Of a stretch of 64,000 nucleotides of DNA, positions 26,828-33,660 are shown piece after piece. Within the stretch, counting starts at the first letter, position 1; the number at the start of each line of letters is the position of its first letter. The notes below the pieces were generated by a model. That model was not told the DNA's origin. It searched no databases and was given only the letters and a program-made list of their open reading frames with translations. The stretch is from NCBI RefSeq assembly GCF_029433105.1, contig NZ_JARNTW010000002.1:124001-188000 (forward strand), given 5' to 3'. The translations under genes and the position numbers were made by a program. The DNA comes from Runella sp. MFBS21. Lineage in GTDB: Bacteria; Bacteroidota; Bacteroidia; Cytophagales; Spirosomataceae.

Positions 26828-26855
26828 ACACCTGAGTCTGGTTAGGCTCAGGTGT
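26828..26855 (+). terminator. Terminator after the Usp gene
   Basis: ACACCTGAG and CTCAGGTGT form a 9-bp stem over a 10-base loop, followed by a T-rich run. It lies 41 bases past the usp stop. Confidence 0.7.
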
Positions 26856-26888: not shown

Positions 26889-27536
26889 TCAGATAGAGAT
26901 TTTGAGAAGAGCGTTTTTTTGAGGCGTATTTACGTTGTTAGCCGCAAGCTTAATCATGGGTATTTCTTCTTCTCTTTTGTGAGCGTAGATTTTTGAGATA
27001 TGGTTGATTTGGATTTTTGACAAGTCTGTTTGAGTGATGCGCTCTCCATCCACAAAAATGTCAATATCGTTTTTGAATTCTTCGTACAGCGCAAGACGAT
27101 TGTCGGAGCTAATGTAAAGCATCGTATGTCTTTTTTGATTGTCACTCGCTTCCTTCAGTTGTACTTGATTCCCTGTCCAAGTATATGCCCATTTTTTTTC
27201 AACCTCCCAACTTTTTGTAAAGCTTAGTAGTTTGCCTTGGTGGTATTCTTCTACGATAACGGTATCGCCTTTATGGAATGTCTTTGTTTCATAAACATTG
27301 TTATCTACTTCTAAATTTTTTTGTTCCCCAAATTCTTGTTGCGTATCTGTGATAGATTCAGAGTGGATGCTAGGCTGGCACATCATTGTTGAAAATGCCA
27401 CAAACCCAAAAATGAAATATCTCCAAGCATTACAAGAAGAAGGGCGGCGATTCATCATCTGAACTCTTCTTTTGAGCATTGATTGGTTGAAATGATTCGT
27501 AAAAGTAAAGTATTCGGGATTGGTGAGAGGTTTCAT
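26889..27536 (-). CDS. M56-receptor 'satellite' protein C: anchor plus plug-like module
   Basis: The 215-residue protein starts MKPLTNPEYFTFTNHFNQSM. The segment NHFNQSMLKRRVQMMNR followed by a membrane helix (YFIFGFVAFSTMMC) copies the last membrane-anchor segment of the M56 receptor at 29553-31363. The rest would be periplasmic. Its end (DIFVDGERITQTDLSKIQIN, then ISKIYAHKR) has the pattern of the TonB-plug-like module seen at the C-terminus of Bacteroidota M56 proteins. There is no peptidase domain. A start 20 codons upstream would overlap the previous gene; the MKPLTN start is shared by all three satellites. Function unknown. Confidence 0.7.
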   Translation of the reverse strand: MKPLTNPEYFTFTNHFNQSMLKRRVQMMNRRPSSCNAWRYFIFGFVAFSTMMCQPSIHSESITDTQQEFGEQKNLEVDNNVYETKTFHKGDTVIVEEYHQGKLLSFTKSWEVEKKWAYTWTGNQVQLKEASDNQKRHTMLYISSDNRLALYEEFKNDIDIFVDGERITQTDLSKIQINHISKIYAHKREEEIPMIKLAANNVNTPQKNALLKISI

Positions 27537-27540
27537 GGCT

Positions 27541-28434
27541 TTAGTAAGTATGAATAAGAACAAATGATTGAGGCTTGTATAAATTTTTAGCATCATAGAT
27601 TACAAAAGATGCAAACTCTTTGATTTGATTGGGGGCTAGTTTGCTTACATACTCATAAGAAACGGGAAAACCATTTTGTCTAAAAAGAGCGCTTCTATTT
27701 TCTAATGCTTTTTTCAAAACTTCATTAGCAGGCGTATTAATTTTATACGTAGGTGTCCCTTCAATTCCTTCAAAGGGATTTTGAGTAAAGCTATTAGTTG
27801 ACATGTAAAGCAACTTATCCCACGACATGCCGTGCTTTATTTTTAGCTCAGAAATTTGGTATTGCAAAATTCGGCTAGAGAAGACTTCCTTGGCACTTGC
27901 TTCATCTTCTTTCGCTATCTTTTCTAAAGTAGAGGAGGAAGGTTTGAGAGAAGATGAAAACTGATTTGTATGAGGGTTGTACTTATAAAATTTAGATTTA
28001 AAAGGGAGTTTATGGCTTTCATTGCCATGAGTATATACAGAATTGTACCCTTTGCCGATTTGATAAGTTTCAATTTGTTTGATGAAGTTTTGAGAGTTGT
28101 CTAAGACGTATTTTGAAACCTTAAAATCAATATCCTGCTTTTTCAATGCTTGCTGAATAATGGCTAAATCACCTAAAGAAATTTTAGGCGTAATCACCCA
28201 TTCAAACTCGTTTTGGTTTTGATGCAAATACTTTGATTTTTCAGCCTCATCAATTGTAAGAGAAGGTTTGGAAAAAGAAAAAACTAAACCTATTGCCCCC
28301 GCGAATAAGAGATATTGTAACGCTGTTTTCCAAGTAACGGCGTTTTTGTTCATCATCTGAATGCGCTTTTTGAGCATTGATTGGTTGAAATGATTCGTAA
28401 AAGCAAAATATTCGGGATTGGTGAGAGGTTTCAT
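27541..28434 (-). CDS. M56-receptor 'satellite' protein B: anchor, sensor-like and plug-like modules
   Basis: The 297-residue protein starts MKPLTNPEYFAFTNHFNQSM and has the same anchor (NHFNQSMLKKRIQMMNK plus helix ALQYLLFAGAIGLVFSF). A periplasmic module follows (FEWVITPKISLGDLAIIQQA) that matches LITPKVTLENVVDIRKEF in the M56 receptor. It keeps the receptor's next segment too (DEASAKEVFSSRILQYQIS against DEAIANEEWTNNQIEYKIK) and ends in a plug-like module (NGFPVSYEYVSKLAPNQIKE). It is open throughout, 2 bases after satellite A and 4 bases before satellite C, so the three are probably cotranscribed. Confidence 0.7.
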   Translation of the reverse strand: MKPLTNPEYFAFTNHFNQSMLKKRIQMMNKNAVTWKTALQYLLFAGAIGLVFSFSKPSLTIDEAEKSKYLHQNQNEFEWVITPKISLGDLAIIQQALKKQDIDFKVSKYVLDNSQNFIKQIETYQIGKGYNSVYTHGNESHKLPFKSKFYKYNPHTNQFSSSLKPSSSTLEKIAKEDEASAKEVFSSRILQYQISELKIKHGMSWDKLLYMSTNSFTQNPFEGIEGTPTYKINTPANEVLKKALENRSALFRQNGFPVSYEYVSKLAPNQIKEFASFVIYDAKNLYKPQSFVLIHTY

Positions 28435-28436
28435 GG

Positions 28437-29549
28437 CTAGTTGTCTTTTGTAGTGTACACTAAAATATTAATTTCGTGAAGGTTAGCTTTTTTGTCTTCT
28501 ACTTCGTATTTGATAGCGTGTTTGAATTTTTCAATCGGAATGCTTTCAATATCAGACAATAAAGCAGGATTATCATTGAGTCTAAATTTGGCTCTATGGA
28601 GTGACTCATTTACTTTTATTACATCTTTGCGTTGGCTATTTGTCATAATGGCAAAAGCCTGATGAAAATGTGGAGTGGTTTCTTTGGTCAAGGATTTCGC
28701 CAAAAACATACTAGTAGGAACATTGTAAATGCCCAATTGCCGATACCTGTTTATGATTTCGTAGAAAGCTTGTGACCATCTACCATCAAAGTGGGCAAGC
28801 CAATTGTCAAGTTGGGCTAGATGCTTGAGGCTTTGCTCCTGAGGTGTGGTACCCTCAAGTAGAGGGATAGTTAAGCTCGTTTTGCGGCTCTGTTCCAAAG
28901 AAATAATTTGGGGAGATTTTTGGAACAACAATATGACAGCAATAGGCTCGATAGGTCTAGAGTCCGTATCTTCTCCTCTTTTGATGAGGCGAGGCATAGA
29001 AGAAAAACTTTTAACTAACATTTCTGCTTTTCTAATATACCTACCCGACGAATCCATTTGCCAAGTTATAATGTCTATTCCTAATCCATGCTGGTCTAAT
29101 TCCTGACGAATTTTCACTAGCTCTTCAAATGGTGTTTTTGCCGTAATGAGTAGGTGGAGATAATCGCCCTTGTAAACCACATATTTGGTAGAAGAAATCT
29201 TAGGCATTGGGATTTCATTAGAAGTCGTTTCATTTCCTAAAGAAGAGTCTTGGGGAGAAGCCTTTTTGGTGGGAGTTTTCCATACAAAATCCTGCAATGG
29301 GGCTGCTGATGGGGTTTTGTGTACTTTTTTCAAAACCGGAACTTTCGTTAGGAGCATCACTTTAACTTGTTCCTGATAAGGTTTAGTAAAAGCCGCACAC
29401 AACCAAATAGTAGCTATAAACAATCCATATTTTCCAACGACATTCCAAGCAGACTTACGCTTGTTCATCATCTGAATACGCTTTTTGAGCATCGATTGGT
29501 TGAAATGGTTGGTAAATGTAAAATGTTCGGGATTGGTGAGAGGTTTCAT
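28437..29549 (-). CDS. M56-receptor 'satellite' protein A: anchor, sensor-like and plug-like modules
   Basis: The 370-residue protein starts MKPLTNPEHFTFTNHFNQSM. Its anchor and helix (KYGLFIATIWLCAAFTKPYQ) are almost identical to the M56 receptor upstream. The sensor-like module reads LHLLITAKTPFEELVKIRQE. About 100 residues in the middle have no counterpart that I can see. The end (SDIESIPIEKFKHAIKYEVE, then INILVYTTK) fits the plug-like module. It lacks the HExxH peptidase domain. It starts 3 bases after the remains of the receptor gene. Confidence 0.7.
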   Translation of the reverse strand: MKPLTNPEHFTFTNHFNQSMLKKRIQMMNKRKSAWNVVGKYGLFIATIWLCAAFTKPYQEQVKVMLLTKVPVLKKVHKTPSAAPLQDFVWKTPTKKASPQDSSLGNETTSNEIPMPKISSTKYVVYKGDYLHLLITAKTPFEELVKIRQELDQHGLGIDIITWQMDSSGRYIRKAEMLVKSFSSMPRLIKRGEDTDSRPIEPIAVILLFQKSPQIISLEQSRKTSLTIPLLEGTTPQEQSLKHLAQLDNWLAHFDGRWSQAFYEIINRYRQLGIYNVPTSMFLAKSLTKETTPHFHQAFAIMTNSQRKDVIKVNESLHRAKFRLNDNPALLSDIESIPIEKFKHAIKYEVEDKKANLHEINILVYTTKDN

Positions 29550-29552
29550 GGC

Positions 29553-31363
29553 TTATAAAGATTTGGTAAACACCATTACATAATGATCGCGTAGAAGCTT
29601 GTTTTCATGCCATTTTTCCTTAAAAATGACCGAATAGAAATCTTTGATTGAAATTTTTTCAATTTCTTCCAAAGAAGAAGGACGACCATCTAACAAAAAA
29701 ATATCTCTGCGCCTTGGCTGCGCGATAGATAGATAACCATCACTTGACAAGTTGATTAGGTTTGATTTTTTACCAAGACGACTTGTTTCGGTAAGTTGGG
29801 TAATGGTCACACTTGAGCTACCACCCACTCCCGTGTTTAAGAGTGCTTTATTTATTTTATTTTATATTCGATTTGGTTATTAGTCCATTCTTCGTTGGCA
29901 ATAGCCTCATCGGCGGTGGCTATTTGTTTAAAAAATGGAGTGACATTTGATGTGCCGCAAGATTTGTTTTTGCTGATAGTGATATATCCTACGCGTGAAC
30001 TGATAGGTTGACCTAAGTCAGAAGAGGATTCTAATGCAAACCCACACTCTCCTCTCTTTAGTCCATGTCCTTTAACGTCTATTTTGATGATGAATTGGTG
30101 AAGAGGATCGGTTTTGAATTCTTCCACGTCAAATAAAATCTGATGCTTTGTAAATTCTTTTCGGATATCTACTACATTTTCCAATGTGACCTTGGGAGTA
30201 ATCAACCAATATAAAACACTGTCTTTGTAATAAACATATTTGGTATCGGATATAAGGTTATTGGTAGAAACCAAGGGCATGGACTGCTCTAAGGTGGCAG
30301 TATCTTCTTCCAGAATTTTAGGTGAAACCCAGATGAAATCTTTTAATTTTTCATATTTCGGGGTTTCTTTAGTTACAAAAGCGGCCTTCAATTCAGGTAT
30401 TTTTTTTATGAGATTCGTTTTTACTATTTCCTGATAAGGTTTGGTAAAAGCCGCACACAACCAAATAGTAGCTATAAACAATCCATATTTTCCAATAACA
30501 TTCCAAGCAGACTTACGCTTGTTCATCATCTGAATGCGCTTTTTGAGCATTGATTGGTTGAAATGATTAGTGATAGAAGGCGTTTCGTTGCCTAAGGTAT
30601 TTCGTAAAAGATGATACTGATAAGACTTTTTCTCGATACCGCTGTCAAGTACGGCGCGGTCGGTGATAAATTCTAGCGTCTCTTGGACGAGTTTTTGGTG
30701 CCACCAAGCAAAAGGGTTCAACCAAAACACAATCTTCAAAAGCTCTGCCGTAAGCACATCAATACTGTGACGTTGATGAGCATGTATACATTCGTGGATA
30801 AAAATCTGATTCCATTCGTCTTCGGTATAAAGTTCAGGATTGAAAAAAATCCAGTTGAAAAAAGAAAAAGGAGAACTGATTTTAGGATTTTCAACCAACG
30901 TAATGTTGTATTCTGTGGTGCTAATTGAACTCTGACCTTTGAGCCTCCACAACACGCCAATCTGTATCAGAAGTTTTATCAACAATCCTCCCGCTACCAA
31001 TGCATATCCAATTGTAAGCCAGTCCTATAGCGTATAATCAGTCTCTCGCGTAGAAAGTGAGACAGGCGCAGTAGAAGAAGGTGGAGAAGTGGAAGGCACC
31101 GAAACCGAAAGAGGAACGGTAGCGACAGACGGAGGAGCGGTAGGCAATACCCTCGCAACAGCTTGAGCAGGCGCATCAGGCAACCACTCAAAATCGGGTA
31201 AAGGCACAATCGGCAACAGTAGCGTAGCGGCAACATTGAGCCACAAAAGCCACCGATTCACTTGTAAAAAAGTTTCCTTCTTGACCAGCCACGCATAAGC
31301 AGTGGTCAAAATCGCTAAAACCAAACTGGCTTTTAGAAGATAAAAAAACAGCGCGTACGGCAT
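29553..31363 (-). pseudogene. M56/BlaR1-type membrane receptor-peptidase, broken by an amber codon and a frameshift
   Basis: BlaR1-like proteins sense a signal outside the cell and cleave a BlaI repressor. The N-terminal part (31025-31363) has two helices and a Pro/Ser/Thr-rich loop, then stops at TAG 31025-31027. The same frame continues at once (DWLTIGYALVAGGLLIKLLI) into the zinc peptidase (HECIHAHQRH near 30782-30796, ITDRAVLDSG), the anchor NHFNQSMLKKRIQMMNK and the sensor-like module, ending at 29852. A 91-residue open stretch (29553-29828) in another frame is the missing plug-like C-terminus (IFLLDGRPSSLEEIEKISIK). An extra AAAAT near 29850-29865 explains the shift. Without both lesions it would be about 600 residues. 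Readthrough or sequencing error remain alternatives. Confidence 0.85.
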
Positions 31364-31388: not shown

Positions 31389-31751
31389 CTAATTGCCCTT
31401 TTCAATCATTTGCAATATCTCGCGGAGTTCCTCAGCACTTACTTTGTCATTCTTGGCAAAATAAGACACCATATTTTTGTACGAATTATCAAAATATTCG
31501 CCTACCAACTTATTGATAACAAATTGATTTTGATAGTTTTCCTTGCTTATAAGTGGAAAGTATTCGTGGGTATTGCCATAAGAATGGTGACCTACATAGC
31601 CTTTTTCTTCGAGGTTACGAATGATAGTCGATACTGTGTTGTAGTGCAAAGGCGGGTCGGTAAAAAATGGCAAAAGGTCTTTTACAAAAGCGCGTTCGGC
31701 TTTCCAGAGTGCCCGCATAATTTCTTCTTCTTTGTTTGTTAGTTTTTCCAT
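31389..31751 (-). CDS. BlaI/MecI/CopY-family transcriptional repressor
   Basis: The 120-residue winged-helix repressor starts MEKLTNKEEEIMRALWKAER. The recognition region is PPLHYNTVSTIIRNLEEKGYV, and the wing is GHHSYGNTHEYFPLIS. The C-terminal dimer helices (NKLVGEYFDNSYKNMVSYFA) are complete. It lies 25 bases before the M56 receptor gene, the normal BlaI-BlaR1 order in Bacteroidota. Because the receptor is broken, its usual inactivating partner may be missing. Confidence 0.93.
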   Translation of the reverse strand: MEKLTNKEEEIMRALWKAERAFVKDLLPFFTDPPLHYNTVSTIIRNLEEKGYVGHHSYGNTHEYFPLISKENYQNQFVINKLVGEYFDNSYKNMVSYFAKNDKVSAEELREILQMIEKGN

Positions 31752-32762: not shown

Positions 32763-33606
32763 CTTTCTCCTTTGTCACCCCGACGCAAGGAGGGAACTGA
32801 GCCACTTTGTGGTGGTGTAGATTCCTCCTTAGGTCGGAATGACAACATGGGAATGACAACATGGGAATGACAAAAAAGTCAAAAAACTTTCTCCTTTGTC
32901 ACCCCGACGTAAGGAGGGGACTGAGCCACTTTGTGGTGGTGTAGATTCCTCCTTAGGTCGGAATGACAACATGGGAATGACAACATGGGAATGACAAAAA
33001 AGTCAAAAAACTTTCTCCTTTGTCACCCCGACGTAAGGAGGGAACTGAGCCACTTTGTGGTGGTGTAGATTCCTCCTTACGTCGGAATGACAACATGGGA
33101 ATGACAACATGGGAATGACAAAAAAGTCAAAAAACTTTCTCCTTTGTCACCCCGACGTAAGGAGGGGACTGATTCCTCTTTGTAGTGGTGTAGATTCCTC
33201 CTTAGGTCGGAATGACAACATGGGAATGACAACAGCGGAATGACAAAAAAATCAAAAAGCTTTCTCCTTTGTCACCCCGACGTAAGGAGGGAACTGAGCC
33301 ACTTTGTAGTGGTGTAGATTCCTCCTTGCGTCGGAATGACAACATCGGAATGACAACATGGGAATGACAAAAAAAGTCAAAAAACTTTCTCCTTTGTCAC
33401 CCCGACGTAAGGAGGGAACTGAGCCACTTTGTAGTGGTGTAGATTCCTCCTTGCGTCGGAATGACAACATGGGAATGACAACATGGGAATGACAAAAAAA
33501 GTCAAAAAACTTTCTCCTTTGTCCCCCCGACGCAAGGAGGGGACTGATTCCTCTTTGTAGTGGTGTAGATTCCTCCTTAGGTCGGAATGACAACATCGGA
33601 ATGACA
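32763..33606. repeat. Tandem array of seven 124-125 bp hairpin repeats
   Basis: Units begin at about 32763, 32887, 33011, 33135, 33260, 33385 and 33510 (the last is truncated). Each holds an imperfect inverted repeat: TTGTCACCCCGACGTAAGG on the left against CCTTACGTCGGAATGACAA on the right (best in unit 3). Between the arms is CCACTTTGTGGTGG. Each unit ends in two or three copies of GGAATGACAACATG. The whole gap of 961 bases between the hydrolase gene and czcA is this array plus a terminator. Open frames across it are low-complexity by-products. It resembles dispersed hairpin repeats common in Bacteroidota intergenic DNA, here amplified in tandem. Confidence 0.95.
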
Positions 33607-33660
33607 AATGCTCCTATCGTGGGAATGACGAGGTGGGATGAATGACCTAGCAAACGTAAG

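Follow-up and report, generated by a model that had tools for sequence, protein, structure and literature searches.

The receptor and satellite genes of the window

The window considered here is a stretch of 64,000 nucleotides (nt) from Runella sp. MFBS21 (contig NZ_JARNTW010000002.1, positions 124,001 to 188,000), a member of the Spirosomaceae whose genome (G000) comprises 7.88 Mb in 72 contigs. Its minus strand carries, in this order, the gene of a BlaI/MecI-type repressor, a doubly broken gene of an M56 (BlaR1-type) receptor, and three small genes, the satellites S1, S2 and S3. Conserved rows of such genes in relatives, moves of sensor modules between positions and naturally split receptors suggest a signalling receptor with interchangeable sensors. 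A first-pass annotation of the window had described three adjacent genes of 215, 297 and 370 residues with near-identical starts, and these are confirmed at 26889-29549 on the minus strand. Overall that observation holds in part, the gene array being real and several details being corrected below, and the interpretation attached to it is partly supported.

The repressor (31389..31751, minus strand, 120 amino acids, aa) contains a Penicillinase_R domain (Pfam, E 1.5e-28; 99.9 bits against a cut-off of 22.6). The receptor, spanning 31363 to 29553 on the same strand, is read in three pieces. Piece 1 (31025..31363) holds the first membrane helices and ends at an in-frame TAG (31025-31027), a place across which the receptor of R. 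zeae (G008) is open; piece 2 (29852..31000) holds the M56 peptidase domain (HECIH; Pfam Peptidase_M56, PF05569, 8.1e-13), the anchor, a membrane helix and the first part of the sensor; and piece 3 (29553..29828), in another frame after a frame change near 29852, holds a C-terminal plug-like module that by eye resembles the C-termini of family F1 receptors. The closest relative of this receptor is that of R. zeae, a single open frame of 599 aa, to which the peptidase piece is 89% identical at the amino acid level. The NCBIfam equivalog blaR1_generic, with a cut-off of 400, gives 30.4 bits for piece 2 and 29.8 for the R. zeae receptor and does not match S1-S3, and a penicillin-binding sensor was not recognised in the receptor by Pfam or NCBIfam.

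The satellites follow 3 nt after the last receptor piece and lie 2 and 4 nt apart, all on the minus strand. Sequence grouping and the tree place S1 (28437..29549, 370 aa) in sensor family F3, which is receptor-borne in R. defluvii and in G010; S2 (27541..28434, 297 aa) belongs to F6, a satellite-only family among the Runella arrays read, and is 95% identical to the R. zeae copy at the amino acid level in its sensor part; S3 (26889..27536, 215 aa) belongs to F7 and, compared with its F7 relatives, is truncated at the C-terminus. Families F1-F7 are our own grouping from pairwise identities, in which the placement of the G009 receptor in F1 is weak. All three satellites begin with MKPLTNPE[HY]F[TA]FTNHFNQSMLK, and their layout consists of a start peptide of about 12 residues, the segment TNHFNQSMLKxR[IV]QMMN, a membrane helix recognised by eye, and a periplasmic part. 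They lack the peptidase, as had been noted at first: no HExxH, no Pfam M56 match and no Pfam or NCBIfam match above cut-off was found in S1-S3. The LITPK-type module assigned earlier to two satellites, lettered A and B, is present in S1 (LITAK) and S2 (VITPK) and not in S3; the letters were not tied to sizes, so S1 and S2 may have been the ones meant.

The shared 5' anchor is a 114-nt minus-strand repeat whose S3 copy (27428..27541) serves as reference, with copies in S1 (29441..29554, 82%) and S2 (28326..28439, 81%) and a corresponding stretch inside the receptor (30499..30612, 61% over 114 nt). Receptor and S1 also have a 185-nt repeat in common (30387-30571 and 29329-29513, 88%), and the start of S2, searched against the whole genome, gave four matches at E <= 0.001, all of them at this locus. 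The proposal that the single membrane helix was copied from the receptor next door fits S1, whose anchor and membrane helix are 96% identical to the window receptor over 126 nt, but not S2 and S3, whose best same-genome anchor matches reach 66% and 52%; copying of all three from the neighbouring receptor is thus rejected for S2 and S3, with anchors nearer to the same module elsewhere.

The truncation of S3 is deduced from two features: the conserved RDSxxxxxSPFYxGDF tail in which its F7 relatives end is missing, and an out-of-frame remnant (LIWIER) stands directly behind its stop codon. The R. zeae counterpart is likewise cut (110 aa, with a TAG in the remnant). The system is therefore decaying in the window, where the receptor is broken twice, S3 is truncated, and S1 and S2 are still open; the earlier picture of a broken receptor beside three intact satellites stands for the receptor, S1 and S2, but not for S3. 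Relatives have the system intact, and the window presents it at a late stage or dying. For S1, the structure model (pLDDT 66) returned no Foldseek hit at E <= 0.001 and hence no significant fold; the comparison with plug domains, made with the same model, gave weak matches to RagA and siderophore receptors (prob 0.38-0.66, E 0.2-0.94).

Conservation of the array in Runella

The comparison within the genus used one genome per species, among them R. defluvii (G001), R. limosa (G004), R. zeae (G008), Runella sp. CRIBMP (G011), R. aurantiaca (G012) and the Runella metagenome-assembled genomes G002, G006 and G007. A receptor followed by one to four satellites occurs in 10 of the 12 other same-genus genomes (G001, G002 on two contigs, G003, G004, G006 and G008-G012), and each of the 10 has the BlaI gene ahead of the receptor. 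The order within the rows is also regular, with F7 as the last gene of every array except that of G003, which has a single F2 satellite, and with F6, where present, just before F7. As a separate observation, a broken satellite of G006 (L045:8724-9599) has an F2-like first piece and a second piece that by eye ends like F3, and it is a possible chimera.

Exchange of sensors between receptor and satellite positions

Receptors of different Runella species can share one half and differ in the other. The peptidases of the G009, G011 and G002 receptors are 94-97% alike and those of G001 and G004 93%, with different sensors in both sets; piece 2 of the window receptor and the R. zeae receptor have peptidases 89% and sensors 36% identical. 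The R. limosa and R. zeae receptors show the reverse, with peptidases 59% and sensors 91% identical (92-97% nt identity in windows from residue 322 on), and four neighbouring genes of these two species are 71-86% identical in nucleotides. When six swap pairs were scanned along their length, five of them showed a shift in identity at residues ~300 to ~345, where the anchor ends or slightly beyond, and two control pairs with the same module (G001/G010 and G011/G012) showed no shift there.

The modules exchanged are also found as satellites, since families F1, F2 and F3 occur in both positions in Runella. For example, the receptor sensor of G011 and G012 is 92-93% identical to a gene at a contig edge of G002, which we infer to be a satellite because the other G002 contig ends in a satellite start. 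A tree of 24 sensors, for which the program warned of long branches, needs five changes between receptor and satellite positions, at least four of them on well-supported branches. In this tree satellites are nested among the receptors of F1, which looks receptor-first, and receptors among the satellites of F2, which looks satellite-first; exchange thus seems to have run both ways. On the sensor tree, approximately unbiased (AU) tests reject the groups formed by the peptidases (p 1.4e-6, 2e-41 and 3.4e-4), and on the peptidase tree they reject the pair of G004 and G008 (p 1.4e-41), all for groups picked after the identities were known. It is strongly supported that sensor halves moved between receptor and array, and between species, during evolution; the ongoing domain shuffling offered as one early explanation is, as an evolutionary process across species, borne out by the sensor and peptidase identities, the trees and the swap-pair scans. 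Because modules moved between positions and species, the array would serve as a reservoir of sensor cassettes, and the near-identical anchors may double as recombination sites.

The anchors divide the families in two. The nearest anchor DNA is found within the gene's own genome for 15 of 23 F1-F5 genes and for 0 of 14 F6/F7 genes, so that most anchors of the swappable genes look homogenised within a genome and those of F6 and F7 seem to evolve as separate orthologues. F6 and F7 have diverged anchors and are not receptor-borne in the Runella arrays read. The pattern looks like what would be left if F1-F5 recombined with the receptor and F6 and F7 were dedicated stand-alone proteins, in which case these two families would be dedicated subunits.

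The presence of F1, F2 and F3 modules in both positions, with identity mostly shifting at the anchor, would also be explained if the array were a reservoir only, in which recombination at the anchor loads a new sensor on the receptor and the satellite proteins are inert; loading by recombination at a conserved motif has been proposed for orphan modules of contact-dependent growth inhibition (CDI), according to the portion of PMC3150448 consulted. We consider a reservoir of inert proteins fairly unlikely. F6 and F7 are conserved despite not being receptor-borne in Runella (F7 is receptor-borne in other genera), and the satellites have their own starts and tight spacing, with purifying selection on satellite-satellite pairs. 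The reading that the satellites also act as sensor proteins is taken further below with natural split receptors, which under a reservoir alone would be left sensorless.

Stand-alone sensors and split receptors in the Spirosomaceae

Family F7 was followed with a profile (A3) in 222 Spirosomaceae genomes, scoring the best 10 or fewer candidates per genome. Among matches reaching the profile end, stand-alone F7 frames (262-422 aa) occur in 34 of the 222 genomes, in genera g1, g5, g17, g19 and g27, and receptor-length frames (573-677 aa) in 20, in g5, g3 and g30, these counts resting on the length of the open frame; three further genomes (G000, G008 and G231) have a partial F7. The 36 loci examined comprise 28 stand-alone and 7 fused cases, the latter with HExxH upstream in the same frame, and one missed by the motif but mapped as stand-alone. 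One and the same sensor can therefore be a separate protein in one species and part of the receptor in another. In genus g3, a second BlaI-M56 locus has satellites of another sensor type, of 221 aa (G014 and G049) and of 181 and 290 aa (G220), and with g3 included stand-alone genes occur in six genera.

Outside the Spirosomaceae, no full-length F7 match at E <= 1e-6 was among those listed for profile A3 in 291 order-level genomes (best seven or fewer candidates each), and the best match listed there (E 2.4e-11) covers positions 6-101 of 308. Among the short open frames listed outside the family, which include some in G064, G273, G298, G348 and G373, the two of G311 were inspected and turned out to be small complete receptors.

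Some further observations concern the F7 loci. In 35 of 36 loci the motif places the F7 tail (RDS, then SPFYxGDF) at the very end of the open frame, and the 36th (G050) has the variant RDT; the tail is terminal whether the protein is free or fused, and it is lost in S3 and the R. zeae copy. This invariant free C-terminal end may serve as a recognition signal. In genus g17 (G205, G210 and G207) a gene of about 980-1060 aa lies between the first satellite and the F7 satellite, and in G207 the two are separated by about 15 kb with further large genes that are SusC/SusD-like by eye only.

In four genomes, G055 and G030 (g19) and G240 and G233 (g5), the receptor is cleanly split, the gene order being BlaI, a peptidase-only M56 protein (257-264 aa) and a stand-alone F7 gene. 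A split receptor, for which the satellites had been suggested as scaffolds, is therefore a real state in these related genomes, but not in that of the window. The peptidase-only proteins end in ...LLKVNLxxGQSx, ...LASGQ or ...LSTG, 4-8 residues before the place that the anchor Phe has in full receptors, and their Pfam M56 matches stop at model position 268-272 of 296, as compared with 296 in the intact R. zeae receptor; the end falls in the loop equivalent to the autocleavage loop of BlaR1. The junction has the same 23-nt gap in G055 and G030, and so the split predates the parting of these two species. Their peptidase-only genes have a ratio of nonsynonymous to synonymous substitution rates (dN/dS) of 0.11 (0.07-0.16) at a dS of 1.29; for G240 and G233, the constraint on the peptidase may predate the split. 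G028 was not counted as a clean split because its 316-aa peptidase protein has an extra tail. In G043 (L054:5045-5047) a single in-frame stop, which may be a mutation, interrupts the receptor at the junction that is split in other genomes. Split receptors of this kind would have no sensor unless the satellite acts, a point against inert satellites.

Selection on the satellites

The dN/dS comparison recommended in the first-pass annotation was run, with high dS making several of the following ratios rough. All eight Runella satellite pairs have a dN/dS of 0.16-0.37 in the sensor part (upper bootstrap bounds 0.26-0.67), next to 0.19-0.31 for sensor pairs (n=3) and 0.07-0.13 for peptidase pairs (n=3) of receptors, and satellite pairs from other genera (n=11) give 0.07-0.26. 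Purifying selection is acting on the tested satellite pairs from relatives. Among the window's own copies, S2 against R. zeae gives 0.35 (0.19-0.71) overall, and for S1 against G002_s2 dS is saturated, the bootstrap replicates with finite dS giving 0.13-0.24.

These values bear on the view that the satellites are debris, left to decay after parts of the receptor gene were duplicated in tandem, which the first-pass annotation had set out as the alternative that would undo its own interpretation. The broken receptor and truncated S3 of the window would agree with it, as would decayed copies in related arrays (G006_s3, G008_s2 and the remnant in G007). Nevertheless, stand-alone genes occur in six genera, and dN/dS is 0.07-0.37 in the tested pairs from relatives; for the family, debris is rejected and very improbable, a rejection that is not extended to the window genome's own copies.

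Homology to BlaR1 and a proposed mechanism

In the solved BlaR1 structure, as described in the sections consulted of PMC9834060, a spontaneous cut falls between Ser283 and Phe284 in the loop 271-289, each protomer lends helix 9 and the terminal membrane helix 10 to the other, Arg294 on the swapped helix 9 contributes to the active site of the partner, and the loop/helix-9 region in the active site blocks the access of BlaI. A profile of 18 Bacteroidota receptors aligns to BlaR1 (8exp, E 1.2e-8) and puts the anchor on it, with the Phe of the Runella NHF on Phe284 and the Arg of KxRI on Arg294 (residue numbers counted from those of the paper); phmmer with the R. zeae receptor and a Runella-only profile did not find BlaR1 among solved structures. 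The distances from HExxH to the third zinc ligand and to the Asp, 41 and 45 residues, equal those of BlaR1 (H201/E242/D246). The arginine equivalent to Arg294 is kept in 61 of 61 anchored proteins, the search pattern having required an Arg, and the five of 66 proteins with no anchor match are four that consist of the peptidase only and one truncated at the end of a contig; the F7 protein of G207, outside a similar pattern, reads RIRIQRMN. By this alignment, a satellite corresponds to the swapped half (loop, helix 9, terminal transmembrane helix and sensor), and a peptidase-only protein to the other half, with no arginine.

From these features we propose that the satellites are produced as stand-alone sensor subunits of an M56/BlaI signalling system. 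The separately encoded half would dock in trans on the peptidase core of the receptor or on the peptidase-only protein and place its own loop and arginine in the active site, so that its own sensor would control BlaI cleavage and the signal output, and several sensors could share one peptidase and one repressor. That the satellites are interchangeable sensor subunits which dock in trans on an M56 peptidase and at the same time form a reservoir of cassettes has in our judgement slightly better than an even chance of being right. Somewhat more tentatively, at a little short of an even chance, sensor chains may exchange into the M56 peptidase by way of the swapped helix 9 and terminal membrane helix, completing the active site in trans, with the anchors re-wiring which sensor is fused; one peptidase would then serve many sensors, and a split receptor would be a genetically pre-autocleaved receptor of the BlaR1 type.

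Docking could also have the opposite effect. As decoys or dampers, satellites would fill the active site or dimer interface of the receptor and hold down BlaI cleavage with no sensing, and they do keep the loop/helix-9 region that in BlaR1 blocks BlaI access, together with the conserved Phe and Arg. This appears improbable, since a decoy does not need large, diverse and constrained periplasmic domains, and the locus of a split receptor has no sensor other than the satellite.

Several points weigh against sensor subunits that dock in trans. Docking would rest on a remote homology to BlaR1, and the model of the R. zeae receptor (pLDDT 49.6) was too poor and was kept out of the fold search. In the window, with the partner receptor broken and S3 truncated, the system may be dead; the dN/dS of its own copies covered S1 and S2, and beyond the anchor the value for S2 against R. 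zeae is 0.40 (0.15-1.10), an interval that passes 1. Within the genus, G005 has no match and G007 a remnant only, to which the decayed copies listed above are to be added. As to exchange, the sixth swap pair (G009/G011) shows a gradual fall in identity from about residue 250 to 400 and not at the anchor alone, 8 of the 23 F1-F5 anchors are not closest within their own genome, and with one genome per species a sensor swap within a species is not seen.

Neighbouring features

Beyond S3, between the array and a convergent usp (universal stress) gene, lies a hairpin of 12 pairs (26828..26855, z -4.1, on neither strand in particular) that is terminator-like on the plus (usp) strand and only a hairpin on the minus strand; sites of this kind number 6 in the region scanned, where 4.0 would be expected. 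At 32763-33607 a 124-bp unit is repeated in tandem (6.8 copies, 95% match), with GGAATGACAACATG as an inner repeat of 14 bp, and in the R. zeae assembly a run of N stands at roughly the equivalent position.

Comparison with known systems

The system agrees with BlaR1/MecR1 and BlaI/MecI in the placement of BlaI beside an M56 receptor, in HExxH and ExxxD, in the Pfam M56 domain and in the equivalents of Arg294 and Phe284. It differs in its free sensors, sensor exchange and genetic splitting, none of which is mentioned for BlaR1 in the consulted sections of PMC9834060. The C-terminal autocleavage fragment of BlaR1 (residues 284-585) has the same composition as a satellite, running from the loop onward through helix 9 and the terminal membrane helix to the sensor, but it is made by proteolysis of one protein, whereas the satellites are separate genes with other sensor domains. 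Among the titles and abstract openings listed from open-access papers, none described stand-alone M56 sensors, and none of the papers joined Runella and BlaR1.

Another likeness is with orphan cdiA-CT/cdiI and rhs cassettes, which, in the part of PMC3150448 consulted, are tandem downstream modules with variable C-termini that have a short conserved segment in common with the main gene; relatives have such modules joined to the full-length gene, and through a deletion the main gene can take up an orphan. In contrast to these, the satellites are sensors and not toxins (no toxin domain was found by Pfam or NCBIfam), they have their own start and membrane anchor, and they come without immunity genes, none of which would fit in the 2-4 nt between the satellites of the window. 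Moreover, the tested satellite pairs are constrained as free proteins, and no swapping of F6 or F7 is seen among the Runella arrays read.

What is known of BlaR1-type receptors comes from single-chain proteins sensing beta-lactams. The existence in nature of free-sensor arrays and split receptors would mean that sensing can be separated from proteolysis, and that the BlaR1 domain swap could serve the exchange of subunits. The split receptors would be ready-made two-part constructs for testing how a signal passes across the membrane, and the arrays would show cassette exchange diversifying sensors, in a setting other than toxins.

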